23,806 nt of DNA from a virus. This document shows, in pieces, positions 1,075 to 20,571 of this stretch. How positions within the stretch are numbered: position 1 is the first letter of the stretch; each line of letters opens with the position of its first letter. The notes under the pieces were generated by a model. That model did not search any database, was not told the origin of the DNA, and saw nothing but the letters and a program-made list of their open reading frames with translations. Made by a program: the position numbers and the translations under genes. The stretch covers positions 1-23,806 of the IMG/VR virus record IMGVR_UViG_3300028710_000003; one strand, written 5' to 3'.

Positions 1075-1527
1075 GTGGTCGCGTATGCAACTGCCAGCGA
1101 TGTGGCCGCCGGGTGGCGGACGCTGACCGCTGACGAGCAGGCGCGCGCCACGGTGCTCCTCGACCGGGCCGCGGTGCTGATCCGCGCCGCGGTCCCATCG
1201 GTGCCGGCGCGACTGACCGCTGGAACCCTCGACGCCAAGGTGCCATTGACGGTCAGCGTGAACATGGTGCAGCGGGTCCTTCGGAACCCGGAAGGCGTGA
1301 CGCAGCAAACGCTCGGGCCGGCGTCGGTGACCTACGACCGGGACGACTCCGGTGCGCTGTACCTGTCCGAGTCCGACCTCGCCGCGCTGACCGCGGCTGC
1401 GGTGGTTGTGACGGGTGCGGCGAGTGTCGGCGCCGGCTCGGTGGCGTTGGCGGTGTGGGACAAGACGGTGATCCCGTCGTGGGCTCGTCCGGATCGGTTG
1501 CATTCGCCGTTCTGGCCGTCGGCGTGA
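1075..1527 (+). CDS. Head-tail connector, Gp19/Gp15/Gp42-like adaptor
   Basis: The 150-residue protein starts at GTG behind a GGAGGCGGGG stretch. The N-terminal part, YATASDVAAGWRTLTADEQARATVLLDRAAVLIRAAVPSV, is the helical pattern of the phage connector family represented by Pfam Phage_Gp19 (Gp19/Gp15/Gp42): a short strand, an 'A..DVA.RW..LT.dE...a..LL..A...IR' helix pair, and then a helix containing MVQRVLRNPEGV. Family members form the ring bound to the portal that starts the neck. Its position after the capsid genes and before the head-closure and gp10-like genes agrees. The C-terminal tail is Ala- and Val-rich and poorly conserved. The stop codon overlaps the next start as GTGA, suggesting coupled translation. 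Confidence 0.72.
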   Translation: MVAYATASDVAAGWRTLTADEQARATVLLDRAAVLIRAAVPSVPARLTAGTLDAKVPLTVSVNMVQRVLRNPEGVTQQTLGPASVTYDRDDSGALYLSESDLAALTAAAVVVTGAASVGAGSVALAVWDKTVIPSWARPDRLHSPFWPSA

Positions 1528-1853
1528 CGATCCCGTTCGGCAGCACCGTCACGGTCACGGTGGTCCGGCCGGCGGCGGAGAACAGGTTCGGCGACCCGGT
1601 CGGAGATCCAGTCGAGACCGCGCTGCCAGGGTGCGTGGTGTGGGTCAACGAGGGCACCGAGGACACCGACCACGCGGACACCGTGGTCGCCCCGGCGACG
1701 CTCGTAGCACCGGCCGGGGCCGATATCCGCGCCACCGACCGGGTCGTCACCGACGACGGGACGTGGGAGGTAGTCGGCGAGCCGACGCCCCGCCGGTCAC
1801 CGTTCACCTCGGCGGCGCTGGTCGAGGCGCATCTGAGGAAGGTGACGGGCTGA
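1524..1853 (+). CDS. Head closure (stopper) protein
   Basis: The start is the GTG that overlaps the previous stop (GTGA), giving 109 residues; an upstream in-frame GTG at 1455 would overlap the connector gene widely and is less likely. The protein is mostly beta: TIPFGSTVTVTVVRPA, then a ValTrpValAsn strand, then DIRATDRVVTDDGTWEVVGEPTPRRSPFT. The closing element, in which a Trp-Glu-Val strand is followed by Pro-Arg and a short helix, is typical of phage head-tail joining or stopper proteins (SPP1 gp16-like, Gp9-like). Such proteins seal the head and give the tail its docking surface. Gene order places it between connector and gp10-like protein, where stoppers normally lie. The call is by fold pattern and position. 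Confidence 0.62.
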   Translation: MTIPFGSTVTVTVVRPAAENRFGDPVGDPVETALPGCVVWVNEGTEDTDHADTVVAPATLVAPAGADIRATDRVVTDDGTWEVVGEPTPRRSPFTSAALVEAHLRKVTG

Positions 1854-2191
1854 TGGCTTCCGCTCGGGTGGAGTTCGACCGGGCCGGCATGTCCGCTGTC
1901 CTGGTCGGCCCGGATATCCGTGGGGTGCTGGCGACGGTCGCCGAGATCGGAAGGGCGTACGCCGAGGAGATTGCGCCGCGCCGGTCCGGCAACTATGTCC
2001 GCTCGTTTGAGGTGCGAGCGGACACCATCGAGTTCTCCGGCTCACCCCGCGCTGCGGCGACGCTCATCAACACCGCCGGCTACGCGGCAGCGGTCGAGTG
2101 GGGCTACGGCCGAGGCGCCACCGATCCGGCGCCGAAGGCGCATCGGGTGCTCGGCCGGACCCTGGATCACCTGACTGAGCTGCGACCCTGA
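1853..2191 (+). CDS. HK97 gp10-like neck/tail-completion protein
   Basis: The ATG overlaps the previous stop by one base (TGATG) and gives 112 residues. Features of the HK97-gp10-like family are visible: an N-terminal strand and helix (ARVEFDRAGMSAVL), a long helix (VRGVLATVAEIGRAYAEEIAPR by frame), the characteristic turn RRSGNYVRSFEV, and a second half with AGYAAAVEWGYGRG, matching the 'tGaYa..vE.G...' signature. It ends with a helix in which the histidine of KAHRVL and RTLDHL occur. Family members join the tail to the head. The gene lies in the expected place in the neck operon. It has no unusual features. Confidence 0.75.
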   Translation: MASARVEFDRAGMSAVLVGPDIRGVLATVAEIGRAYAEEIAPRRSGNYVRSFEVRADTIEFSGSPRAAATLINTAGYAAAVEWGYGRGATDPAPKAHRVLGRTLDHLTELRP

Positions 2192-2201
2192 GGGAGCGGG
2201 C

Positions 2202-2663
2202 ATGGCCGACGGTGTGATGAACATCGCCAAAGGGAAGATCGCCTACTACGCAGGCCTACCCGCCGCGAACGACGCGCTGATCGTGGTGCTGCTGAAGGCG
2301 ACCGGCCTGGAAGCCGACGACACCCTCAACAACTACGACGACCTCGCCGCGCTGCTCGCCGCCGCGAACGACGAGGCCGACGCCACCAACTACGTCCGCA
2401 AGACCGTCACCGCGAGCATCACGGTGACGGTGGACGACACCGGCAACAAGGTCGACATCGACATGCCGGACCTGACGTGGACCGCACTCGGCGGCGCCAG
2501 CAACAACACCATCGCCAAGATGCTGGTCTGCTACGACCCGGACACCACCGGCGGCACCGACAGCACCGTGATACCGCTGACGTACCACGACTGCACGCTG
2601 ACCACGGATGGCACGGACGTGACGGTGCAGATCGCCGCGGCGGGGTTCGCCCGCGCCGCCTGA
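2202..2663 (+). CDS. Conserved-type phage structural protein of unknown role, beta-rich
   Basis: This 153-residue protein starts at ATG with GGGAGCGGG upstream. The N-terminal half is helical and includes an amphipathic segment (IAKGKIAYYAGLPAANDALIVVLLKATG) and an acidic LNNYDDLAALLAAANDEAD helix. The C-terminal half is beta-rich, with TASITVTVDDTGNKVDIDMP, MLVCYDPDTTGGTDST, and VTVQIAAAGFARAA. Similar small proteins occur between neck genes or near capsid genes in Streptomyces-type phages, where they are annotated as hypothetical or head-associated. Here it separates the gp10-like gene from the tail terminator gene, an unusual place for an insertion in the neck module. It may be a virion decoration. 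The function is unknown. Confidence 0.5.
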   Translation: MADGVMNIAKGKIAYYAGLPAANDALIVVLLKATGLEADDTLNNYDDLAALLAAANDEADATNYVRKTVTASITVTVDDTGNKVDIDMPDLTWTALGGASNNTIAKMLVCYDPDTTGGTDSTVIPLTYHDCTLTTDGTDVTVQIAAAGFARAA

Positions 2664-2698: not shown

Positions 2699-3862
2699 GT
2701 GACGCTGTACCAGATCTGGCCGGCGACGTCCGGTCCCGGCTCGGCCACCGTCGACGGCGGCGTGAACCTCGCGGTCGAGTTCTACGTCACCGACCCAGGT
2801 CTCAGCGCGACCGGGCTGCGGTTCTGGAGGGCGGACACGTCGATCCTCGGGCCGGTCACCGCGCAGATCTACTCCGTCACCGACGCCAGCTCTGGCACGC
2901 CGCTAGCCGGCGCCGACATCACGTTCACCCTGTCCGGCACCGGCTGGCAGACAGCCACCTTCACCGCGCCGGTCGCGCTCACCGCCAACCAGCGATACCG
3001 GGCGGTCTGCAACTTCCCGACGAACTACTCAGCCGACGGCCACTACTGGGACTCCGGGGCAGGCGCCGGCGGCATCACGCACGGCCCGCTGGTCGCCCCG
3101 GATTCGGCGGCAGCGACGGGCGGGGACCAGGGCAGCTTCGTCGTCGGCGGATCGCTGGCGTTCCCGACGAACCAGTTCAGCTCCGCAAACTACTGGGTCG
3201 ACGTCAACGTCCAATCAGGACAGACAATCACAGTTGGGCAGGCCGCCGAGACGGACACGGCCGGCCAGATCACGGCCAGAAAGACCCGGCCGCTCGGGCA
3301 GGCGACCGCCACCGAATCCGGCAGTACCGTCACTGTGACGAAAGTCCGCTCGGTGGGGCAGGCACCGTCCACCGAGACAGCGACCGCGCTCACGCGGCGG
3401 AAGGCCCGGACGGTCGGGCAGGCGCTCACCACGAACACCGCGCAGCCGGTCACCATCCCCACGGACACCACGCCGTCCGGATACCCGGACATCGAGCTGG
3501 TCCTGTGCGACTTGCTCGCCGACCTCGGCAACACCGGCACCCGCACCCCGGCGGACCTGCAGGACCAGTTGGAGTTCATCCGGATCCGCCGGGTCGGCGG
3601 TTCCGACGATCAGGTCACCGACCGAGCCCGGGTAGACGTCGAGGTGTTCGCCGCGACCCGTGCCGTGGGGGAGGCGTTGATCGAGGACATCCGGCAACGC
3701 CTGTCGGTCCGCGGACCGTTGACGGTGACCTCCGGCGGCCGGCCGGTGGTGGTGGACAGGACGCAGTTGCTCGCAGGCCCCGTCGAACTCGCCTGGCCGG
3801 ACCCTGAGGTCCGCATGTTCCACGCGACCTATCAGCTCGAATCCCGGCGGCCGTGGCCGTAA
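2699..3862 (+). CDS. Fusion: DUF4082 domain + four 20-residue repeats + tail terminator domain
   Basis: The 387-residue protein starts at GTG with GGAGGG ten bases upstream. Residues 1-175 match the DUF4082 pattern: SATGLRFWRAD, then GTGWQTATFTAPVALTANQRYRAV, and a terminal FPTNQFSSANYWVDVNV that corresponds to the family's 'FPt.sfnstNYwVDV' end. Residues 180-255 are a tandem repeat with GQA at residues 180, 200, 220 and 240, exactly 60 bases apart. Residues about 260-387 look like an actinophage tail terminator: PDIELVLCDLLADLG, DQLEFIRIRRVGGSDDQ, DRARVDVEVFAATRAVGEAL and FHATYQLESRR. Terminators cap the tail tube at the neck and are normally about 130 residues. No separate terminator gene exists here, and the tube gene follows directly, so this fusion probably fills that role. 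DUF4082 is a beta-sandwich domain of unknown role often attached to secreted glycan enzymes, so glycan binding at the neck is possible but inferred. Confidence 0.72.
   Translation: MTLYQIWPATSGPGSATVDGGVNLAVEFYVTDPGLSATGLRFWRADTSILGPVTAQIYSVTDASSGTPLAGADITFTLSGTGWQTATFTAPVALTANQRYRAVCNFPTNYSADGHYWDSGAGAGGITHGPLVAPDSAAATGGDQGSFVVGGSLAFPTNQFSSANYWVDVNVQSGQTITVGQAAETDTAGQITARKTRPLGQATATESGSTVTVTKVRSVGQAPSTETATALTRRKARTVGQALTTNTAQPVTIPTDTTPSGYPDIELVLCDLLADLGNTGTRTPADLQDQLEFIRIRRVGGSDDQVTDRARVDVEVFAATRAVGEALIEDIRQRLSVRGPLTVTSGGRPVVVDRTQLLAGPVELAWPDPEVRMFHATYQLESRRPWP
3236..3475 (+). repeat. In-phase 60-bp (20-residue) tandem repeat, four units
   Basis: Within the DUF4082-tail terminator gene the sequence GGGCAGG(C) recurs at 3236, 3296, 3356 and 3416, exactly 60 bases apart, and each encodes Gly-Gln-Ala. 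The units read roughly GQAxxTxTAxxxTxxKxRxV, with a Lys-x-Arg pair before the next unit; the fourth unit lacks it and leads into a Pro/Thr linker. DNA identity between units is moderate and the protein pattern is better kept, so selection acts on the protein. It probably forms an extended or elastic linker between the two folded domains. Confidence 0.85.
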
Positions 3863-3889: not shown

Positions 3890-4555
3890 ATGGTCGGTGT
3901 TGCCTACTCGGGCGTCGCGGTGCGGCACTCGGAGTTGATCCGCAAGGCCCTGCAGGGCAGCGTCTTCGTCGCGCCGTCAACGGCGACGTCGATCACAGCG
4001 CTGACGGGCACCGATTCGCTGATCGCGGCTCTCCCCGTCGGGTTCACCGACCTCGGGTACGCCACGAAGGACGGCACAAGCTTCGACCGCGCGGTGGACG
4101 CCAGCGAGACGACGTCCTGGGGTGCCACCGACCCGACCCGCCGGGACATCACCTCGGATGTGGTCACCATCCACGTCGTGTGCCAGGAAACCAAGGCCTC
4201 GGTCCTGGGTCTGTACATGGGCTTGGACGCGACGACGGCGGTGCCGACATTGGCGTCGGGGGAGGTGGCGATCGCGAAGCCGCTGCGGCCGCTGAACAGG
4301 TTCTACCGCCTACTGACGCTCGGCGTGGACTCGAACACCAGCGGCGAGATCTACATCGCCCGGTACAACCCGTACGTGTCGGTGACGTCGCTCGGCACGC
4401 AGACCTACCAGGACGGCGAGGAGCTGAAGTACGACATCACCTTCACCGCGTACCCCGATGCGACGCTCGGCTACTCCGAGAAGATGTTCTACGGCGGCCT
4501 CGGCTGGAAGGCGTTGATCACCGCGGGCAACATGGGCTTCGCCGCCCCGGCCTAA
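3890..4555 (+). CDS. Major tail tube protein
   Basis: This 221-residue protein starts at ATG 3890. It shows the pattern of actinophage major tail proteins: an N-terminal arm that leads into PSTATSITALTGTDSL, the strand LPVGFTDLGYATKDGTSFDRAVDASETTSWGATDPTRRDITSDVVTIHVV (read in pieces: a beta strand, then the SWG..DP.R...T loop), a helix ETKASVLGLYMGLD, and a C-terminal sandwich with RLLTLGVDSNT and a final EELKYDITFTAYPD strand. The subunits stack as hexameric rings to form the tube through which DNA leaves. It lies between the terminator-type gene and the tail assembly chaperone genes, which is the canonical order. No Ig-like extension is present at the C-terminus. Confidence 0.88.
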   Translation: MVGVAYSGVAVRHSELIRKALQGSVFVAPSTATSITALTGTDSLIAALPVGFTDLGYATKDGTSFDRAVDASETTSWGATDPTRRDITSDVVTIHVVCQETKASVLGLYMGLDATTAVPTLASGEVAIAKPLRPLNRFYRLLTLGVDSNTSGEIYIARYNPYVSVTSLGTQTYQDGEELKYDITFTAYPDATLGYSEKMFYGGLGWKALITAGNMGFAAPA

Positions 4556-4579: not shown

Positions 4580-4795
4580 ATGGCTACCACTGCGGACGTC
4601 CCGAAGGACGCCGACGGCAACGACGTGCCGGTCCTCGGCCTGTTCGAGCACCCGGAGTCTGGTGCGCAGGTGTGGGCGCATACCCCCGCCGACGAGGTGC
4701 AGTACCAGGCTGAGGGCTGGAAGCCGGTCAAGACCGCGAAGGCGGAGAAGGCCGCCGCGGCGCCGGAGAAGGGGGCCAGCGGTGGCGGCAAGTAG
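4580..4795 (+). CDS. Small basic protein upstream of the tail chaperone, unknown
   Basis: The 71-residue protein starts at ATG with AGGAG seven bases before it. The first 47 residues could fold as a small beta unit (DVPVLGLFEHPESGAQVWAH, EVQYQAEGWKPVK), and the last 24 are an Ala/Lys tail ending in GASGGGK. The gene overlaps the following chaperone gene by 14 bases in another frame, so the two are probably translated in a coupled way. Short proteins of this type follow the tube gene in several actinophages. I do not recognise a family with certainty; a minor tail or assembly protein is the simplest guess. Confidence 0.55.
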   Translation: MATTADVPKDADGNDVPVLGLFEHPESGAQVWAHTPADEVQYQAEGWKPVKTAKAEKAAAAPEKGASGGGK

Positions 4796-5135
4796 CGGCC
4801 GCCGACCGGCCGCCGCGCAGCAGGACAAGCCGGCGCCCGTCTCGCTGAACCTCGACACCCTGGAGCGGGAGGGCGGCACCCCCGAACCGTTCGTCGTCGT
4901 CCTCGCAGGCGAGCGGCTGCTGCTGTCCGACCCGGCCGAGGTGGACTGGCAGAAGCTGATGGCCGCGATCCGGGACCCGCACGTGTTCTTCCGGCTGATC
5001 ATCCCGCCGGACGACCACAAGACGTTCTTCGACGCGACGCTGCCCGGCTGGAAGATGAACAAGCTGATGCAGTCGTACATGGAGCACTACGGTCTGCCGA
5101 GCCCGGGGGAAGCGGTCGCCTCGCCGGCGTCCTGA
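4782..5135 (+). CDS. Tail assembly chaperone, short form (gpG-like)
   Basis: The most plausible start is GTG 4782 with AGAAGGGGG upstream, giving 117 residues and a 14-base overlap with the preceding gene. The core shows the pattern of actinophage tail chaperones: a strand PFVVVLAGERLLLSDPAEVDW, a helix QKLMAAIRDPHVFFRLI, PPDDHKTFFDATLPGWKMNKLMQSYMEHYGLPSPGEA (in pieces), ending just before the tape measure region. G-type chaperones bind the tape measure and recruit tube subunits. A GGGGGAA slippery heptamer sits near the end at 5105-5111, and the -1 frame stays open beyond it, so a fraction of ribosomes should make the longer GT protein. The short form ends at TGA 5133-5135, eight codons after the slip site. 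Confidence 0.82.
   Translation: MAASSGRRPAAAQQDKPAPVSLNLDTLEREGGTPEPFVVVLAGERLLLSDPAEVDWQKLMAAIRDPHVFFRLIIPPDDHKTFFDATLPGWKMNKLMQSYMEHYGLPSPGEAVASPAS
5105..5111 (+). promoter_or_regulatory. Programmed -1 ribosomal frameshift site, GGGGGAA
   Basis: In the zero frame the codons are CCG GGG GAA GCG. The heptamer G-GGG-GAA allows both tRNAs to re-pair after slipping one base back (GGG GGA). The -1 frame has no stop from 5102 to 5605. Tail chaperone pairs of long-tailed phages use exactly this arrangement, with -1 slippage between G and T. I did not verify a downstream stimulatory structure. Confidence 0.82.
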
Positions 5136-5605
5136 CCCGGTACGGCGAGGCGATCGAATACGACTTGGCGGTCCGCGGCGTCGACCTGGCCCGCGAGTGG
5201 CGGTCCCGACGCTGGCGCCGGCTACTCAACCTGATTGACCACCTGCCGGCCCACTCGGCGTACGCCGAGGCGCTGGCGGCCGATGAGGACTTGGCGGTGG
5301 CGGTCCTCGCCCACCCGCAGCCCGACGGGGCAACTGGGCCGCGGGTGAGCGAGTGGACATCGGAGCGGGCAGCGCTCGCCGAGATCAGCGACAAACTGTC
5401 GACTCTGATCGCCGCGACGATCGCGGCGGCCGGGTCCAGACCGCCGAAGCTCATCCCGTCACCGCGGCCACGGGTGGCCGCCGACCAGGTGCGTGAGCGG
5501 CAGCGCGCCGCAGCGCACCTGTCGCTGGTCGAGCGGGTCCTCCCGGACCGGGCGCAGGCCGACGCCGAGTTCACGCGCCTGTCCGAGATCGAGGCGACGA
5601 CGTAG
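5111..5605 (+). CDS. Tail assembly chaperone T part, made as G-T frameshift fusion
   Basis: This segment is read in the -1 frame after slippage at 5105-5111. It adds 164 residues to the first 110 of the short chaperone, giving a 274-residue fusion. No convincing Shine-Dalgarno or ATG/GTG start precedes it, and the first in-frame start candidate (TTG 5165) lies within conserved-looking sequence, which argues against independent translation. The pattern is that of actinophage T domains: RYGEAIEYDLAVRGVDLAREW, then RRWRRLLNLIDHLPAHSAYAEALAADEDLA, matching the typical 'R.W..L..LI..LP..S....Al..DeE' block, then a charged helical tail. The fusion is needed in low amount during tail assembly and is generally not part of the virion. 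The tape measure gene follows after 12 bases. Confidence 0.8.
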   Translation, partial: SGRLAGVLTRYGEAIEYDLAVRGVDLAREWRSRRWRRLLNLIDHLPAHSAYAEALAADEDLAVAVLAHPQPDGATGPRVSEWTSERAALAEISDKLSTLIAATIAAAGSRPPKLIPSPRPRVAADQVRERQRAAAHLSLVERVLPDRAQADAEFTRLSEIEATT

Positions 5606-5617
5606 GTCGGGGGTGTC

Positions 5618-8600
5618 GTGGCCGACTACGACGCCGGGCGCGCGTTCCTGCAGATCGTTCCCTCCTTCCGGGGCGTCCGAGAGTCGATCAAGAAGCAGGC
5701 GAAGACGTGGGCCGACGACGTCGAGGGAGCGGTCGAGAAGGCGCTGCCGGAGGGCTTCACCAAGGGCAGCAAGGCGACTGAGCCGGTCGCGAAGAAGAAG
5801 GGCACGGAGACCGGCGAGGCCTACGGCGGGGCGTTCGCGCGGACGGTGAAGACCCGCGTCGAGGCGGCGCTGAAGGCGCTACCTCCGGTAAAGATCAACG
5901 CCGACTCGTCGCTGGTCGACATCAAGCTGGCGGCGATCCGCGCGGAGCTCGCCGATCTGTCGAAACAGAAGATCGGTGTCGACGTGGACGACGCGACCGC
6001 GCTGGCGCAACTGGAACGACTGAAGGCCGAACTGGACCAGATCGGCGCCGACTCCGCGTCGATCCAGGTCCGCGCCGACACCGCCACAGCGTCGGTCGAA
6101 CTCGACAAGCTCGCGGCGCAGATCCGTCGCATCGCCGACGACTCACCTACAGTCCAGGTCGATGCCGACACGGGGGCGGCGGACGCGAAGCTCGCCGCGA
6201 CGGGCGCCGAAGCGGCACGGCTGGGCGCGTCGTCACCGACGATCAGCCCGGACGTCGACTCCGGGCGGGCGTTGATCGGTATCGCGGTGATCCGGGCGGC
6301 GCTGCTCGCGTTGACCGCGGCACCCATCGTGATCCCGATCGCGGTGGCCGGCGCGTCACTCCTCGGCCCCTTGGCGGCCGCCGGAGCAGGCGCAGCAGGG
6401 TTCGGTGCTGTCGCCGCGTCCGGTCTGTCGCGGATTCACACCGCGATGCAGGCGCAGGACGCCGACACCGGGGGCGGTGGCCGTTCCGCGGCATCGCAGG
6501 TATCCGCGACGAACAGCATCCGCCTCGCGCAACTGGGACTCGCCGACGCGCAGCGGGCCGTCGCGGTCACTGCTCGGCAGAACGCGCAGGCTCAGGCCCA
6601 AGCCGCCGAGCAGGTACGCGCCGCTGAACAGTCGCTGGCCCAGGCGCAGCGGCAGGCCGCCGACGCGCAGAAGGCGCTCAATCAGGCTCGGGTAGATGCC
6701 AAGCGCGGCCTGGAAGACCTCGCGAACAGCCTCGCCGACGCGCAACTCGCGCAACGCCGGGCGCAGGCGAACCTCCGAGACGCGCAAGCCACCCTGACGG
6801 CGGTCCTCGGTGACCCGCGTTCAACCGCGGCGCAGCGAGAAGCCGCGCAGTTGGCCGTGGATGAGGCAACGCAGGCGCTGGCCGAACAGGGCCAAGCCGT
6901 CAAGCGGTTCGCCGAGGACAAGAAGGCCGCCGACAAGGCTGGGGTTAGCGGATCCGATCGGGTGCTGGCCGCTGAACGCAGGCTGGCGGACGCCCGGCGG
7001 GAGGCGGCGGACAGGCAGCGGGCGTTGTCGAAGGCCCGCGCCGAGCAGGCGTCGGTGGAGCTCCAGAACGCCGAGCGGAACATCCAGGCTCAGGAAGGTC
7101 TGGTACGCGCGCAACTCGGGCTGGCCTCCGCGCAGGCTTCGGCGGCCGCGGCGCAGGAGTCGGCGGCCGGCGCAACCAGCAAGCTCGACAAGGCGATGAA
7201 GGACTTGACGCCGACCGAACGCGCCGCCTTGGGCGCGTTCCGGGACTTCGGGCAGGCGTACCGGGACTGGGTCAGCGCGTTGGAGCCGGCGGTGTTCCCA
7301 GCGATCCTCGGCGGCCTCGACCTGATCAAGTCGTTGTTTAAGCCGCTGACACCCATCGTCCAGGCCGCATCCGGCGCGTTCGTGCAGCTGGAAAAGGACG
7401 CGCAGAAGGCGTTGACGTCGCCGTTCTGGAAAGACACCCTGGCGGCTCTCGCGAGGCTCACCGGCCCCGCGATCCTCGCGTTCGGACACGTCGTCGGGAA
7501 CGTCATCACCGGGATCGCCGGGATCGGGCGTGCCCTGTCGCCGACCGGCGGTGGGGTCCTGCGGAGCATCGAGGGCCTGTCCGAAAAGTTCGCGACCTTC
7601 GGGAAGAACGCCAACAAGCCGGGTGGCTTCCAGGACTTCCTGCACTGGGTACGGGAGAACCTCCCCAGGGCGATCGAGTGGCTCAAGGCGGTCGGCGAGG
7701 CGCTGCTACGGATCGGTCGCGCGCTGCTGCCGATCGGTGGCCTTGTCCTCGGCGGGATCAAACTCCTCGCGGACGTGATCAACGCGATGCCTCCGTCGCT
7801 CCTCGGGGCTATCGCTGCTGCCATCATCGCCGTCGCGGCGGCCGTGAAGTTGTGGGCCCTGGCCACCAAGGCCTTGGTGTTCTTTGAGGCGCTGCTGAAC
7901 TTGGAGCTAGGCCCGATCATCATCATCATCTTCGGCCTCGCGGCGGCGTTCCTCTATGCCTGGACGCAGTCCGAGCGATTCCGTGACATCGTCATCGGAG
8001 CACTGCTGTACGTCCGAGACACCGCGTTCGGTGCAGGCAGGCTGACCGCGAAGTACATCATCGACCCGATCCTGGGCCTGATCGCTTTGCTGCGGACCGC
8101 CTGGGCCAACATCAAAACTGTCTTCGCTACCGGCTGGGCCACGGTCAAGACGGTATTCGCCGACGTCTCCGGGTTCTTCCAGAAGTATTTCATCGGCCCG
8201 ATCGAGGCGATCCCCGCTGCGGCGAAACGGATCTGGGACGGCATCAAGAAGGTGTTCTATTCGGGCGTGAACGCCGTGATCGACATCATCAACGGGTTCA
8301 TCGGCGCGTTCAACTTCTTCTTCTCCAAGTTCGCGCCGACGCAGCGGATCCACTTCGATCTGATCCAGCACGTCGGGCAGAAGACCTCGGGCAAGGGCTT
8401 CGGTCTTGCCGGCGGCGGGGTGCTGCCCGGGTACGCGCCTGGTGTGGACTCGATCCCGGCGATGCTGTCACCCGGTGAGGGTGTGCTGGTTCCGGAGGCG
8501 GTCAGGGCGCTCGGCGCCGACTGGATCCTCGGCATCAACGCCGCGTTCAGCCGGCGGCGCCCAGGGACCAATGGGGCGTACGCCGGCGGCGGCGTCGTCG

Positions 8601-9466
8601 GCGACTTCCTCAGCTTGCTGCCGAGTCCGACCAGCGTCCTACCGGGCGTCAGCGGCAAGAGCCTGGTGTCCGGGCCGGCAGAGCGGATGCAGGCCCAACT
8701 GCGTCACGGCGGGGACCTCCCCGGCCGCGTGGGTGGGGCCGTGGCGGGCAGGCTCGCCGACGCGGTGGCCGCAGCGCTGGACAAGTCCATCAATCTGCTG
8801 CCGGCCGTCATGGCTGGCCTGACCGGCGGCGCGGCCCCCGCCGGCGGGGCAGTCTCCCGGTGGTCCGGTGTCGCCGGGCAGGCGCTGACGCAGCTCGGCC
8901 AGTCCACAACGCTGATCAACCCGGTGCTGCAGCTCATCAAGTTCGAGTCCGGCGGCAACCCAACCGCGGTCAACCGCACCGACATCAACTGGCAGCACGG
9001 CACCCCGTCCGTCGGATTGGCGCAGGTGATCGGGCCGACGTTCGCCGGTAACGCCGGCCCGTACCTCGGCACAGGGCCGTTCCTCTACGGGGTGAGCACG
9101 AACCCGCTGGCGAACGTGTTCGCCGGCCTCAACTACGGCATCCGCCGCTACGGGTCCGTCAGCAACATCCCCGGCATCAGATCCGTCCAGCACGGCGGCC
9201 CGTACCTGCCCTACGACCAGGGCGGCTACCTCCCGCCCGGCATGTCGGCAGTGTTCAACGGCACCGGCCGCCCGGAGCCGGTCCTGTCCGGCGCGCAGTG
9301 GGAGACGCTCGCCGGTTCCACCCGTGGCGGCGACGGGCCTATGACGATCTCCGGCACGCTGGACTTGGGGGATGGGCTGGTGGGCAGGGTGGAGGGCATC
9401 ATCGACGCCCGCGAACACCAGCAGGCACGGCAGGTCTCCTACGGTCGGCGAGCGGTGGCGGTGTAG
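5618..9466 (+). CDS. Tape measure protein with C-terminal lytic transglycosylase domain
   Basis: This is the largest gene, 1282 residues from GTG. The start MADYDAGRAFLQIVPSFRGV is a typical tape measure opening. Residues about 90-215 hold three 30-residue repeats plus partial copies. Residues 215-270 are strongly hydrophobic, 300-525 are an Ala/Gln/Arg-rich coiled coil, and residues about 725-785 form a second hydrophobic block including five Ile in a row. Residues about 1100-1190 are an SLT-type domain: KFESGGNPTAVN with probable catalytic Glu1110, SVGLAQVIGPTF, NPLANVFAGLNYGIRRYGS and IPGI. It ends with a GGYLPPG...EPVL segment common in these proteins. It sets tail length (by the usual ~0.15 nm per residue, near 190 nm) and the enzyme domain would open peptidoglycan at injection. 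The next gene starts at the base after its stop. Confidence 0.93.
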   Translation: MADYDAGRAFLQIVPSFRGVRESIKKQAKTWADDVEGAVEKALPEGFTKGSKATEPVAKKKGTETGEAYGGAFARTVKTRVEAALKALPPVKINADSSLVDIKLAAIRAELADLSKQKIGVDVDDATALAQLERLKAELDQIGADSASIQVRADTATASVELDKLAAQIRRIADDSPTVQVDADTGAADAKLAATGAEAARLGASSPTISPDVDSGRALIGIAVIRAALLALTAAPIVIPIAVAGASLLGPLAAAGAGAAGFGAVAASGLSRIHTAMQAQDADTGGGGRSAASQVSATNSIRLAQLGLADAQRAVAVTARQNAQAQAQAAEQVRAAEQSLAQAQRQAADAQKALNQARVDAKRGLEDLANSLADAQLAQRRAQANLRDAQATLTAVLGDPRSTAAQREAAQLAVDEATQALAEQGQAVKRFAEDKKAADKAGVSGSDRVLAAERRLADARREAADRQRALSKARAEQASVELQNAERNIQAQEGLVRAQLGLASAQASAAAAQESAAGATSKLDKAMKDLTPTERAALGAFRDFGQAYRDWVSALEPAVFPAILGGLDLIKSLFKPLTPIVQAASGAFVQLEKDAQKALTSPFWKDTLAALARLTGPAILAFGHVVGNVITGIAGIGRALSPTGGGVLRSIEGLSEKFATFGKNANKPGGFQDFLHWVRENLPRAIEWLKAVGEALLRIGRALLPIGGLVLGGIKLLADVINAMPPSLLGAIAAAIIAVAAAVKLWALATKALVFFEALLNLELGPIIIIIFGLAAAFLYAWTQSERFRDIVIGALLYVRDTAFGAGRLTAKYIIDPILGLIALLRTAWANIKTVFATGWATVKTVFADVSGFFQKYFIGPIEAIPAAAKRIWDGIKKVFYSGVNAVIDIINGFIGAFNFFFSKFAPTQRIHFDLIQHVGQKTSGKGFGLAGGGVLPGYAPGVDSIPAMLSPGEGVLVPEAVRALGADWILGINAAFSRRRPGTNGAYAGGGVVGDFLSLLPSPTSVLPGVSGKSLVSGPAERMQAQLRHGGDLPGRVGGAVAGRLADAVAAALDKSINLLPAVMAGLTGGAAPAGGAVSRWSGVAGQALTQLGQSTTLINPVLQLIKFESGGNPTAVNRTDINWQHGTPSVGLAQVIGPTFAGNAGPYLGTGPFLYGVSTNPLANVFAGLNYGIRRYGSVSNIPGIRSVQHGGPYLPYDQGGYLPPGMSAVFNGTGRPEPVLSGAQWETLAGSTRGGDGPMTISGTLDLGDGLVGRVEGIIDAREHQQARQVSYGRRAVAV
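5888..6250 (+). repeat. 30-residue repeats in the tape measure N-terminal region
   Basis: Residues about 90-215 contain consecutive units beginning KINADSS, IGVDVDD, IQVRADT, VQVDADT and a partial ISPDVDS. The middle three are about 30 residues apart. Each unit has a short beta-like (I/V)xVxxD start and an Ala/Leu-rich helix ending in (I/L)xxxS. The pattern is clear at protein level and weak at DNA level. Confidence 0.7.
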
Positions 9467-10264
9467 GTGGTCGCCGCGATCACCGTGACAGCGGACACCG
9501 CCAACTCGCGGATCAGCCTCGCCGTCACCGGCGCGACCGGTGGCACCGGCTATATCCGGCGCACCAACCCTGACGGCTCCGCGAACACGGTGCGGAACGG
9601 GGAGCCGGCGACGTTCACCGCGGGCGCGTGGTCGGACTACGACTACGAGGCCCCGATGGACCTCGCCGTCACCTACCAAGTCCTGTCCTCCGACCAGACG
9701 ACGGTGCAGGCCACCAGCAGCTCGGTGACGTTGGCCAGCGGCGACAAGACGTGGCTGAAAGACCCGAGCGTCCCCACGCTGAACTTCGTCTTGAAGGTCA
9801 CCGCGATGGGGGACCTGTCCCGCGAGCTCCCGATGGGCGTCTTCTACGTCGCGGGCCGCACGTACCCGGTGGTGACGACGGGCCGCCGGTTCGTGCCCAC
9901 CGGCGAGGTCGTCTGCTACACCGAGACGTTCGCCGAGCGGCAAGCGATGCTCAACATCCTGTCGTCGGGCCGGGTCCTGCAACTGTCCACCCCGGACGGG
10001 TACGGGTGGGGCGCCTACTACGTCACTGTCGGCACGGTGAACGAGCACCGACCTACACCAATCGCTGACAATTCGGTGCGGCACTGGACGCTGCCGCTGA
10101 CCATCACCGACCGGCCCGCGTACGTGTCGTCGGCCGCGTCGGGGAACACCTGGGGCGACGTGGTATCCAACTACGCCACCTGGGCCGACGTTATCCGGCT
10201 CAAGGCCACCTGGAACGACCTCATCGCCGCGGTCGCTCCCGCGACGCAGGCCCCGGGAGTCTGA
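9467..10264 (+). CDS. Distal tail (Dit-like) minor tail protein
   Basis: GTG 9467 immediately follows the tape measure stop, with no gap; 265 residues result. The N-terminal 95 residues are an Ig-like beta region (ITVTADTANSRISLAVTG, YQVLSSDQTTVQATSSSVTL). The remainder matches actinophage minor tail proteins that follow the tape measure: KTWLKDPSVPTLNFVLKV, FYVAGRTYPVVTTGRR, ETFAERQAMLNILSSGRVLQL, WTLPLTITDRP, and a C-terminal TWGDVVSNYATWADVIRLKATWNDLI run. The three-fold TW-D repeat at the end is characteristic of this family. In siphophages this position encodes the distal tail hub that attaches tip proteins. The exact fold is inferred from position and pattern. Confidence 0.78.
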   Translation: MVAAITVTADTANSRISLAVTGATGGTGYIRRTNPDGSANTVRNGEPATFTAGAWSDYDYEAPMDLAVTYQVLSSDQTTVQATSSSVTLASGDKTWLKDPSVPTLNFVLKVTAMGDLSRELPMGVFYVAGRTYPVVTTGRRFVPTGEVVCYTETFAERQAMLNILSSGRVLQLSTPDGYGWGAYYVTVGTVNEHRPTPIADNSVRHWTLPLTITDRPAYVSSAASGNTWGDVVSNYATWADVIRLKATWNDLIAAVAPATQAPGV

Positions 10265-13865: not shown

Positions 13866-14384
13866 GTGAGCGCTTTTCTGATCGCCTTGACGGTGGCGAT
13901 CCCCGCGTTCCTGGGGCCGTGGATCGCGATCCGCGCGAACGGCCGGGAACGGCGCAAGGACCAAGCGGCGACGTGGGCGCGGGACGACGAGGTAGCCGCG
14001 CAAGCAGCCAAGGCCGCCGAACTGCTCCTCGCGGCCCAGCAGGAGACCATCAAGCGTACGAATGAGGTGGCGAGGCACGTCGCCGCCGCCACGGCGAAGA
14101 CCGACGAGAAACTCGATGCGATCCACACCCTTGTGAACAGCGACATGACGGCCGCCCGGCAGTCGGAGCTGGACCAGACCAGGGTGACGTTGGTGATGCT
14201 CCGCAAGGTTGTCGCGCTCGACCACGCTGCTGGTCGCGCTCCATCCGAGCAGGACGTGGCGACGATCGAAACGACCGAGGCCCGCATCACCGAGCTGCAG
14301 GCGATCCTCATGGACCGGTTGGCGCAGCAGCAGGCGGTGGAGGCCGAGACCCGCGCGGCGAGGCTCAGCACCGGGGAGCAGTGA
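13866..14384 (+). CDS. N-terminally anchored coiled-coil protein of the lysis region
   Basis: GTG 13866 follows AAGGGGGGCGGGGC; 172 residues. One hydrophobic segment at residues 3-24 (AFLIALTVAIPAFLGPWIAI) is followed by an Arg-rich stop (RANGRERRKDQ), so the N-terminus is membrane-inserted with the rest probably cytoplasmic or at the membrane surface. Residues 40-170 are a charged coiled coil with KTDEKLDAIHTLVNSDMTAARQ and ITELQAILMDRLAQQQ. The 'HtLVNSdmTaar' block occurs in a set of actinophage proteins between tail fibre and lysin genes. It may be an accessory holin, a lysis regulator or an assembly factor. It overlaps the lysin gene by GTGA. Confidence 0.62.
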   Translation: MSAFLIALTVAIPAFLGPWIAIRANGRERRKDQAATWARDDEVAAQAAKAAELLLAAQQETIKRTNEVARHVAAATAKTDEKLDAIHTLVNSDMTAARQSELDQTRVTLVMLRKVVALDHAAGRAPSEQDVATIETTEARITELQAILMDRLAQQQAVEAETRAARLSTGEQ

Positions 14385-14839
14385 CCTCTCCCGCCGACCT
14401 CGGCTGGGGTGACCCGCACGTCCTCACCGACGCCGACATGACCGGTGCGCAGCTGTGGCCCGGTCATGTCGTGCGAGTCCGCAACGACGACGTAGCTGTA
14501 GTCGCCGTCGCTCTGGTCCGCCGGTTGCGGACCGCCGGGTGGCAGGGCCCGGATCCGCTGCTGGACGAGTGGGGTTACGCGCGCCGGCTGAAGCGGTCCG
14601 CCGAGGCGAAGTACCGAGCCCAGGGACTCACCGAGGCGCAGTGGCTGCAGCGGGCCGCCCTGTCGGAGTGGTCCGACCACGCGTGGGGCACCGCGATCGA
14701 CCTGGACACCGCAGCGAACCCGATGCTGGCCACCCGGCCAGCCGATCCGCAATCCCGCACCACTCGCCCCGTCGCCGCGTGCCCCGGCATCGCCGCATCC
14801 CTCGGATTGGAATGGGGCGGCGCCTGGACGACGCCGTAG
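14381..14839 (+). CDS. Endolysin peptidase domain (M15/VanY-like), cut short by in-frame TAG
   Basis: GTG 14381 overlaps the previous stop; 152 residues are read before TAG 14837-14839. The zinc peptidase pattern is clear: LSEWSDHAWGTAIDLD, the family's SxHxxGxAxD motif with His100 and Asp107 as two zinc ligands, followed by GLEWGGAW, which usually precedes the third ligand. That ligand is missing in the reading frame before the stop. Directly after the TAG the same frame reads DPQHWQVA, which matches the expected D..H(F/W)(E/Q) end, so His157 would be the third ligand. The frame then continues into the DUF1906 lysin at 14912. Without that histidine the short protein should be inactive. Either the codon is a nonsense mutation, a sequencing error, or is read through. 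Confidence 0.78.
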   Translation: MTSPADLGWGDPHVLTDADMTGAQLWPGHVVRVRNDDVAVVAVALVRRLRTAGWQGPDPLLDEWGYARRLKRSAEAKYRAQGLTEAQWLQRAALSEWSDHAWGTAIDLDTAANPMLATRPADPQSRTTRPVAACPGIAASLGLEWGGAWTTP

Positions 14840-14911
14840 GACCCCCAGCACTGGCAGGTTGCCGTGACCCCGCAGCGACTCGCGCAGATAGCGGCACCAC
14901 TCAGGAGATCC

Positions 14912-15877
14912 ATGGAAGTCCTCGACTACTCATCCGGCTACCCGGCGCCCGCCGCAGTGAAGGCGGCCGGGTACGCCGGCGTGGTCCGCTACACCGGCAC
15001 CCCCGGCCGCGGGAAGAACCTGACCCGCGCCGAAGCGCAAGCCATGACCGCCGCTGGTATCCCCGTCGCGCTCGTCTACGAAGACAGCGCCGGGTGGATG
15101 CGCGGGGGAGCGGCGGCGGGGATCGCTGCCGCTCGCGCCGTGCTGGCCGACGCCGCGAACTGCGGGGTCGGTGTCCGGTGCGTGTACTTCGCCTGTGACG
15201 AGGACGTCACCACGCAGATGGCTGTTGTCCTGGCGTGCCTCGACGGCGCCGCAACAGTCCTCGGCAGGAACCGCACCGGCGTGTACGGGGAAGCCGACGT
15301 CATCGACGCCGCGGTCCCCGGGCACGCCGCGTGGGGCTGGCAGACCCGCGCCTGGTCCGGCGGCCGCGTCTCCGCGAAAGCGCACCTGCTGCAGCAGATC
15401 GGCTACGTCACCGTCGGCGGCATCCAATGCGACCGGAACACCACCCTGAACGACGACTACGGCCAATGGCCGACCATACAGCGGGGAGACATCATGCTCG
15501 ACCCAGACGTGAAAGCCTACTTCGACGCCAAATTCCAGGCCGTCGGCGACGGCCTCGGCATCATCATCTGGGGCGACGAACGCGTCGACACCCCCACCCA
15601 CGGCGACGGGCACCCAGACAACATTCAGCGAGTCCGCGCAGAGGAGAAAGCCGACGCCGTCCTCGACGCGACCCGCGACGCGGCGGACGCCGCCCGGGAC
15701 GTGTCGCTCCTCGCGCAGATCGCCGCGGTGAACGCCCGCCTCGACACCCTCCAGACCGGCGGCGGGGGAACCCCCGTCGACCCGGCGGCGGTCGCGGCCG
15801 CGCTCGACTACGACCGGCTCGCCGCCGCGCTGGCCCCGCAGCTCGCGAACGTCCTCGGTAAGCGGCTGGAGTCCTGA
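14912..15877 (+). CDS. Endolysin module with DUF1906 (Rv2525c-like) glycoside hydrolase-like domain
   Basis: ATG 14912 has AGGAG four bases upstream, so this part can be made alone; it is in the same frame as the upstream peptidase. Of 321 residues, 1-195 match DUF1906: EVLDYSSGYPAPAAVKAAGYAGVVRY, a GRGKNLTRAEAQAMTAAGIPVALVYED strand-helix pattern, YFACDED, and the TRAWSGGRV..AHLLQQIGYVTVGGIQCDRN end. This TIM-barrel-like family is found in mycobacterial Rv2525c and in actinophage lysins and is thought to act on cell wall glycan. Residues about 200-321 are helical with a Gly-rich hinge and AAALDYDRLAAALAPQL, possibly for wall binding or oligomerisation. A 499-codon open stretch from 14381 interrupted only by TAG suggests an ancestral two-domain lysin. 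Confidence 0.78.
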   Translation: MEVLDYSSGYPAPAAVKAAGYAGVVRYTGTPGRGKNLTRAEAQAMTAAGIPVALVYEDSAGWMRGGAAAGIAAARAVLADAANCGVGVRCVYFACDEDVTTQMAVVLACLDGAATVLGRNRTGVYGEADVIDAAVPGHAAWGWQTRAWSGGRVSAKAHLLQQIGYVTVGGIQCDRNTTLNDDYGQWPTIQRGDIMLDPDVKAYFDAKFQAVGDGLGIIIWGDERVDTPTHGDGHPDNIQRVRAEEKADAVLDATRDAADAARDVSLLAQIAAVNARLDTLQTGGGGTPVDPAAVAAALDYDRLAAALAPQLANVLGKRLES

Positions 15878-19741: not shown

Positions 19742-19931
19742 GGTTCCTCCGCTTCGGCAAGCGCATCTCCACGTTGTGGACTCGGCACCACGGCGGTGAC
19801 GCTGTACGGGAAGGCCGCGCAGACCGGACCGCGCAGCGCCGGCGTGGGCAGACGTACCAAACAGACCAAACAGATCCAGACTGGCCGTATGCGCCCTGGA
19901 GCCGGGCGGCTCCCCATCTGCTGTTGACCAT
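19734..19931 (-). CDS. Small zinc-ribbon-like protein between WhiB and integrase
   Basis: ATG complementary to 19929-19931 overlaps the WhiB stop (TGATG), and the stop overlaps the integrase start by eight bases; 65 residues. The central part has VCPRRRC and, 17 residues later, PPWCRVHNVEM, a CxxxxC...CxxH arrangement that fits a small zinc ribbon; the C-terminus is basic (RLPKRRNRG). A 9-bp tandem duplication (ACCAAACAG at 19856-19873, encoding SVW twice) lies before the ribbon. Proteins with a 'PP.C..H...M' end occur next to recombinases in actinobacterial mobile elements. It may bind DNA or the integrase. Its coupling on both sides suggests fixed stoichiometry with WhiB and Int. Confidence 0.68.
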   Translation of the reverse strand: MVNSRWGAARLQGAYGQSGSVWSVWYVCPRRRCAVRSARPSRTASPPWCRVHNVEMRLPKRRNRG

Positions 19932-20227
19932 CACGCCGCCGCCTTCCGGTCGATCTGCCCGGCCTGTGCGGCTTCCTTGCGGGCCTGACTGCGGATCGTC
20001 TCCCACCGCCGTGGGCTTGTACCGGCGCGGATGCCGTACTCGTCCCCGGTGTCAGCGAGAGCGTCCTGCAGGCACTGCGCGGCAACGGGGCACGAGGCGC
20101 AGATCCGGCGGGCCTCCACGGCGAGACCGGCGTCCGGATACCACAGCTCGGGGTCGGTCTGGGCGCACACTGCCATGCGCTGCCAGCCGGGCGCGGGGCG
20201 TTCGAACAACTGGGCAGTGGCGATCAT
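19931..20227 (-). CDS. whiB: WhiB-family iron-sulfur regulator
   Basis: ATG complementary to 20225-20227 overlaps the HIT gene stop (ATGA) and gives 98 residues; the longer open frame starting at 20251 overlaps that gene and is rejected. The four cluster-binding cysteines are Cys21, Cys43, Cys46 and Cys52, arranged C-x21-C-x2-C-x5-C. The turn motif that is usually G(V/I)WGG reads GIRAGTS, so the Trp and one Gly are replaced. The C-terminus is basic (PRRWETIRSQARKEAAQ). WhiB proteins bind a 4Fe-4S cluster and the sigma factor to control transcription; phage WhiB proteins such as that of TM4 can alter host division. The altered turn might change sigma-factor contact. Confidence 0.88.
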   Translation of the reverse strand: MIATAQLFERPAPGWQRMAVCAQTDPELWYPDAGLAVEARRICASCPVAAQCLQDALADTGDEYGIRAGTSPRRWETIRSQARKEAAQAGQIDRKAAA

Positions 20228-20571
20228 GACGCCGCCTTTTGGCCGGTCCACGGCAGCGTCAGTCCGTCATCACGGCGGCGCGGCACGACGTGGACATGCA
20301 GGTGCTTCACGGTCTGCGTGGCCTCCGGGCCGACCGACGTGATGATGTTGCAGGGCATGAGCGCCCGGGCCATCTCCGCGGCGGCGACCATCACGGCGCC
20401 GGTGGTGATCGGGTTCTCGGCGGCATGGTCGACGTGCCGGCGCGGGACGACGAGCACGTGCCCGTCGGTGACGGGGTTCGGCGGCTGGAAGGCGACGGCG
20501 TCGGACCACTGCCGGTCGTAGTCGCCGGCCTTGATGCGGTCGCAGAACGGGCAGGTGGTCGGGGCGGACAT
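20224..20571 (-). CDS. HIT-family nucleotide-binding protein
   Basis: This 115-residue protein starts at ATG complementary to 20569-20571 with AGGGGGAG upstream. It begins with TCPFCDRIKAGDYDRQWSDAVAFQPPNPVTDGHVLVVPRRHV (in pieces), the usual HIT start in which CPFC..I and the strand-Pro-rich turn-HVLVVP.RH can be seen. The signature KHLHVHVVPRRRDD at residues 89-102 carries the His90-x-His92-x-His94 triad; His94 would be the catalytic nucleophile in hydrolase members. HIT proteins hydrolyse or transfer nucleotidyl groups from substrates such as dinucleoside polyphosphates or AMP-lysine. HIT genes are unusual in phages. It is the first gene after a perfect hairpin and is coupled to whiB. Confidence 0.85.
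   Translation of the reverse strand: MSAPTTCPFCDRIKAGDYDRQWSDAVAFQPPNPVTDGHVLVVPRRHVDHAAENPITTGAVMVAAAEMARALMPCNIITSVGPEATQTVKHLHVHVVPRRRDDGLTLPWTGQKAAS

Follow-up and report, generated by a model that had tools for sequence, protein, structure and literature searches.

A phage tail terminator gene in one reading frame with a DUF4082 domain and 20-residue repeats: a plausible collar of lectin-like arms at the neck

The DNA analysed here, referred to as the window, is a stretch of 23,806 nucleotides from a virus (IMG/VR record IMGVR_UViG_3300028710_000003, positions 1 to 23,806). Its neck genes follow the order Ad1, Hc1, Neck1, phrog_26662, fusion gene and major tail protein (Table 1), so that the fusion gene has neck genes on its 5' side and the major tail protein gene on its 3' side. 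The same neck order is found in Arthrobacter phage Bridgette, there with a standalone terminator, and at the capsid gene end the window and Bridgette share 82% DNA identity.

Table 1. Neck genes of the window and parts of the fusion gene, in window coordinates.
Feature	Position	Strand	Evidence
Head-tail adaptor Ad1	1075..1527	+	phrog_137 E 4.9e-26
Head closure Hc1, start codon uncertain	1455..1853	+	phrog_501 E 2.7e-18
Neck1-type protein, start codon uncertain	1844..2191	+	phrog_16886 E 3.7e-13, phrog_5 E 1.8e-6
Small fibre-base-like protein, phrog_26662, first gene of the cassette	2202..2663	+	phrog_26662 E 1e-45 (PHROGs)
Fusion gene, DUF4082 + four 20-aa GQA repeats + tail terminator, 387 aa	2699..3862	+	Pfam, PHROGs, repeat spacing
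DUF4082 lectin-like beta-sandwich domain, residues 19-167	2753..3199	+	PF13313 E 1.2e-22 (Pfam); model fold
Four 60-bp / 20-aa GQA units, residues 178-257, predicted without fixed structure	3230..3469	+	spacing, shuffles, pLDDT
Tail terminator domain, residues 261-386	3479..3856	+	phrog_123, PF23841, solved terminators by profile and fold
Major tail protein, directly 3' of the fusion gene	3890..4555	+	phrog_476 E 4.9e-59, PF25681

The fusion gene is a single uninterrupted frame of 387 codons with a GTG start, for a protein of about 40 kDa. An earlier note on this DNA, made from the letters only, had given its start, end, strand and length correctly, and the claim that one protein combines DUF4082, repeats and a terminator was borne out by Pfam, PHROGs and the spacing of the GQA motifs. 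The third-position GC content is 0.85-0.92 across all three parts of the gene. Two near-identical records carry the same frame: one of 59 kb, without any difference from the window over 9,859 bp, and one of 13 kb with a single difference over 9,853 bp, located outside the fusion gene. The window and these records are probably one genotype and are thus counted as three assemblies, not three lineages. An assembly or sequencing artefact, by which a stop codon between two genes was removed, is hardly credible; the sequences of the three records are almost identical and could stem from a single population, but the open frame is shared by three assemblies, the third-position GC content is high throughout, and similar fusions occur in the other phages described below.

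The C-terminal part of the protein matched phrog_123 (E 7.7e-19) and phrog_813 (E 3.5e-10) in PHROGs, and residues 261-385 scored 34.0 bits with the tail terminator family PF23841, for which the curated cut-off is 27. A profile of nine terminators compared with the PDB retrieved the terminator of mycobacteriophage Douge, 8zdj (E 2e-6), and that of 9lwa (E 1.1e-5). In the AlphaFold2 model of the fusion protein the mean pLDDT is 61, with values mostly of 73-87 in the terminator part; in the alignment behind this model, roughly eight residues at the beginning of the standalone terminators are out of place, and two mixed alignments that set terminators against DUF4082 were dropped. Residues 259-387 of the model superimposed best, among solved structures, on Douge gp12 (Z 18.1, rmsd 2.3, 129 residues aligned), followed by Mycofy1 gp11 (Z 16.6), the Bxb1 connector (Z 16.0) and then lambda gpU, T5 and others. 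Foldseek concurred, with E 5.3e-8 for Mycofy1 gp11. That the C-terminal part is a complete and real tail terminator is therefore well supported by sequence, fold and gene position, as the earlier note had proposed for residues of about 260-387.

Matches to phrog_123 numbered one in the window and one in each of the two near-identical records. No second terminator gene, which would have spoken against the earlier proposal, was found in the window or in these records, and the terminator in the fusion is apparently the only one of the genome, as far as the window and both records cover it. Standalone terminator genes of 121-143 aa were present in all eight phage relatives opened, and the terminators of Bxb1 (gp18, 148 aa) and Bridgette (gp12, 137 aa) are standalone as well. 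The siphophage terminators, such as Douge gp12, Bxb1 gp18, lambda gpU and other phrog_123 members, thus share with the fusion the same complete domain, encoded before the major tail protein. Those opened are single-domain proteins of 121-148 aa, whereas the fusion has about 255 additional N-terminal residues.

The Douge terminator is a hexamer located between the stopper and the tail tube, according to part of its published description (PMC13033339). Since it is the closest solved relative by fold, a hexameric ring is plausible for the fusion terminator by analogy. A second product could in principle be made: translation starting at codon 213 or 219, each an internal GTG, would give a shorter terminator and rings with fewer than six arms. 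In-frame GTG codons do lie at 3335 and 3353, corresponding to products of 175 and 169 aa, but a purine-rich ribosome-binding stretch just upstream of either was not evident by eye and no in-frame ATG, GTG or TTG occurs between codons 219 and 272. We consider this alternative very unlikely.

The PF13313 match of the N-terminal domain (Table 1) amounts to 80.9 bits, against a curated cut-off of 28.4. A profile search against the PDB returned no solved relative of DUF4082 by sequence. By fold, the model of residues 1-174 resembles the Cwp84 lectin-like domain (Z 11.1), the central fibre of Douge (Z 10.5) and residues 219-407 of the Bxb1 tail spike gp29 (Z 10.1), as well as beta-sandwiches other than lectins, for example PHR domains (Z 10.8). 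The confidence of the model is moderate in this domain, with pLDDT below 50 in some stretches. A lectin-like fold is nevertheless supported by the model, through the similarities to Cwp84 and gp29. The domain might bind glycans, a function suggested by its modelled fold. On the association of DUF4082 with secreted glycan-active proteins, mentioned in the earlier note, one literature entry was encountered, which concerns a secretome.

The repeats are as the earlier note had described them: GQA occurs at residues 180, 200, 220 and 240, a spacing of exactly 20 aa or 60 bp. Pairs of repeats agree at 32-36 of 60 bases and 6-11 of 20 residues, a divergence that points to old copies, and Tandem Repeats Finder did not report them. 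At the protein level the 20-aa periodicity exceeds chance, as the best stretch of 60 residues contains 24 identities at lag 20, compared with a shuffle mean of 12.1 and none of 100 shuffles reaching 24. Residues 174-260 have pLDDT values below 50 and the repeats were modelled without structure by AlphaFold2, although this may reflect a thin alignment instead of flexibility. An arm of 87 residues could by simple arithmetic span up to about 30 nm when fully extended. A triple beta-spiral shaft was considered for the repeats and set aside; six identical arms might associate into two trimers, and the model is that of a monomer.

The gene directly upstream, separated from the fusion gene by 35 bp, belongs to phrog_26662, a family without assigned function. 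Its product was modelled with a pLDDT of 91.9; similar folds are those of a T4 baseplate protein (Z 9.9), the tail wing arm of Bxb1, gp31 (Z 9.0), GP4 fiber I (Z 7.3) and a Bas63 connector chain (Z 6.9). As Foldseek gave no match at E ≤0.001 for this model (GP4 fiber I came first, at E 0.07), the kinship with fibre bases rests on the VIA-align Z scores of 6.9-9.9. Entries for PRMT and antibodies in the same fold list were regarded as background. We use the term cassette for a phrog_26662 gene placed directly upstream of a gene that encodes an N-terminal beta-sandwich followed by repeats of about 20 aa. Both features are present in the window, where phrog_26662 and the DUF4082-repeat part form a two-gene lectin-fibre cassette. 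This cassette had been overlooked in the earlier note: the upstream gene and the repeats belong with DUF4082 to a unit that elsewhere stands alone. The note had likewise missed that fusions of this kind recur on other neck proteins.

Streptomyces phage Hiyaa carries a phrog_26662 gene just before the gene for a protein of 1110 aa with many 20-aa G.A..T.TA repeats (genes 12-13), located between capsid and adaptor, and in cyanophage Pam4 phrog_26662 precedes a gene annotated as polysaccharide lyase. The Hiyaa pair is of the phrog_14065 type and has in common with the window the small base gene upstream, an N-terminal domain and the repeats of 20 aa. The phrog_14065-type fibres opened end in a C-terminus of their own, whereas the repeats of the fusion run into the terminator and the fusion protein gave no phrog_14065 match in PHROGs at E up to 1.

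The distribution of this gene pair was assessed by scans with an alignment of the phrog_26662 family, which provided 16 loci in genome contigs and, in viral contigs, the best 80 of 90. Downstream proteins of at least 150 aa, 70 of them distinct, were retained. Left out were 22 loci (11 duplicates and 11 with a downstream ORF below 150 aa), four loci lacking an ORF downstream, and the window together with two copies of it; some picks in a wrong frame (e.g. L060) and unrelated next genes (e.g. a terminase) were kept among the 70. In this set, with the viral loci being the best 80 of 90, periodic repeats for which none of 200 shuffles reached the observed value were found in 41 of the 70 proteins, the best lag was 20 in 37 of these 41, and 32 of the 70 matched phrog_14065. 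Connector families were rare in the same 70 (viral loci again the best 80 of 90): phrog_783 was matched once (L099), phrog_442 twice and phrog_40 once, and a local adaptor query touched, besides, only L106, which has no repeats.

The nearest relative is L045, from an Actinomycetes metagenome-assembled genome, whose phrog_26662 gene (protein 70% identical) precedes the gene for an unfused DUF4082-GQA protein, 370 aa long. The latter is 41% identical to residues 1-252 of the fusion, the main alignment ending just before the terminator. At the joint the window reads VTIPTDTTPSGYPDIE, compared with MQIPTDITPRPDIE at the start of the Colleen terminator. The stretch IPTDTTPSGYPDIE, near the Colleen N-terminus, is kept, so that little beyond the start of the terminator was lost. 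Together with the end of the L045 alignment, this joint indicates that nearly the whole of a fibre gene adjoins nearly the whole of a terminator gene.

The pairing of phrog_26662 with a repeat gene raises the alternative that the DUF4082-repeat part is a docking arm, which would hold the phrog_26662 base or other fibre subunits at the neck while another protein binds the receptor. The close spacing of the two genes in the window, the likeness of the phrog_26662 model to fibre bases and tail wing arms and the fact that both genes travel paired in many relatives all fit such a function. However, the standalone copy in L045 has its lectin-like domain at the free N-terminal end, and in the model the DUF4082 domain resembles lectin-like and spike domains, which makes the docking function unlikely, if the most serious of the alternatives.

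The exact fusion, DUF4082 with a phrog_123-type terminator, was encountered in one genotype only in the scans performed here. Among 178 loci, a frame with both domains was confined to 15 ORFs, every one of them the same gene from copies of the window. The collection was scanned for terminators with a narrower alignment than the divergent set of nine proteins, and none of the 21 terminator loci fetched with it contained DUF4082; a single-sequence scan with the terminator part matched only the two near-identical records. Searches of the open PMC literature, judged by titles and the starts of abstracts and with subscription journals mostly outside this scope, listed no report of a terminator fused to a lectin, carbohydrate-binding or Ig-like domain or to a neck appendage.

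A scan with DUF4082 sequences yielded 16 viral loci, two of them copies of the window. Fusions of DUF4082-repeat proteins to neck proteins were found in three other phages, to an adaptor in L140 and L099 and to a terminator-like domain in L144. The partner of DUF4082 and repeats in L140 is a head-tail adaptor of phrog_783 (E 8.3e-41). L099, which was found through phrog_26662, has its fusion gene (8460-10148) directly 3' of the phrog_26662 gene, with a DUF4082-like domain (E 2.7e-21 with the profile built in this analysis), about five ETDEAF-type repeats and an adaptor of phrog_783 (E 1.2e-61) in one frame; a twelve-fold ring could here bear the same arm. The gene of L144 (5932-7119), encoded between adaptor and tail tube, joins DUF4082 and repeats to a domain of about 180 aa, which occurs in the sister phage L177 (2492-3034; 71% identical) as a separate gene at the same position, directly after the adaptor and without the cassette. 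Profile comparison did not link this domain to terminators, tblastn in phages was empty and the sole family matches, to phrog_4204, were weak (E 0.025 and 0.029), so that it is called terminator-like by position only; it may be an undescribed type of terminator.

The small base gene 5' of the fusions is phrog_26662 in the window and L099 and phrog_240 in L140, L144 and L151. Unfused DUF4082 genes lie directly before the next structural gene in L142, L004 and L150, this next gene having an adaptor domain in L142 and being adaptor-like by eye in L004 and L150, with weak PHROGs matches to other families in L150. In L004 a lyase-like gene is located between the phrog_240 gene (Pfam Gp80, the GP4 fiber I family) and DUF4082. 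Neck proteins of these phages thus repeatedly bear a lectin-repeat module that elsewhere is standalone. Two tandem DUF4082 domains each were observed in L151 (6001-7965) and L149 (5362-6747). In Arthrobacter phage Wildwest (L016) the annotation gives a capsid protease joined to a VIP2-like ADP-ribosyltransferase (4609-6660), and in the protein of gene 1 DUF4082 is accompanied by PDGHPLAP-type repeats and an additional part at the C-terminus.

These four fusions, in the window, L140, L144 and L099, suggest that the covalent link is useful, and they speak against a cut after translation, in which a protease would free the terminator and the N-terminal half would be lost or become a separate fibre, so that the ring would bear no collar. 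Lacking a predicted fixed structure, the repeats could be cut, and the terminator domain is complete by itself, but no cut site was noticed in the course of the other analyses and such processing seems improbable in view of the recurrence.

The reading preferred here, to which we assign a probability of roughly two in three, is that of a chimeric terminator, in which the fibre gene of a cassette sited between Neck1 and the terminator was joined in frame to the gene of a ring protein. The event would have led from separate genes to the joined one; unfused relatives exist for both halves. The C-terminal domain would form a hexameric ring that ends growth of the tail tube and docks on the head-closure ring. 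Six lectin-like domains per virion, on arms of about 87 residues, would be displayed outward around the neck and might hold glycans of the host surface weakly, making it more likely that the tail tip adsorbs productively. A collar of this kind is plausible, as judged here from genes and models.

In lactococcal phages, carbohydrate-binding domains of neck and tail bind host cells, the one of the neck weakly, and are considered ancillary in adhesion, according to part of the published account (PMC6669499), and by analogy the same role is the best guess for the arms of the fusion. The neck passage structure of the lactococcal 936 and P335 phages likewise places domains of the carbohydrate-binding type at the neck, with binding to host cells shown for one phage, but its carrier is a separate protein that contains a BppU-like ring domain and, in the model of the authors, a coiled-coil arm (PMC6669499, the same part of the account). 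Here the carrier would be the terminator itself and the arm consists of 20-aa repeats; neither a BppU-like domain nor a coiled coil was found in the fusion by one Pfam scan and in one model, which has no helix in residues 1-260. The whiskers of T4, formed by fibritin, are also neck appendages, fibritin being a separate trimeric coiled coil, whereas the first helix in the model of the fusion does not appear before residue 265. The Bxb1 proteins gp29 and gp31, which the DUF4082 and phrog_26662 models resemble, belong to the tail tip according to the title of 9d93, and not to the neck.

Major tail and Dit proteins are known as display platforms for host adhesion, and terminator and adaptor rings are usually regarded as fixed plumbing. 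A more tentative generalisation, to which we would give somewhat less than even odds, is that a mobile cassette joins repeatedly in frame to the adjacent neck-ring gene and gives rise to collars of glycan-binding arms, six on a terminator ring or twelve on an adaptor ring, neck rings then serving as a general platform for the display of adhesion domains. If rings do bear lectin arms, host adhesion would not be confined to the tail tip, and the repeat fibres of phrog_14065, a large family so far without assigned function, would have a role that can be tested, that of fibres at the head or neck. The occurrence of the module both standalone and fused in related phages offers a natural experiment on the benefit of the covalent link.

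Outside the neck region, the window encodes a tyrosine-type phage integrase (18581-19741, reverse strand; PF00589, E 1.1e-20), and the phage is therefore probably temperate. Near the integrase, on the same strand, lie genes for a WhiB-like regulator (19931-20251; E 4.8e-15) and, beside it, a HIT-domain protein (20224-20571; E 7.4e-15). In L045 a HIT-type gene presumably stands beside a Thg1-like gene, both assigned by eye from motifs. Two neighbouring genes of lysis type encode an M15-like peptidase (14381-14839; E 4.4e-11) and an Rv2525c-like glycoside hydrolase domain (14864-15877; E 1.7e-19).
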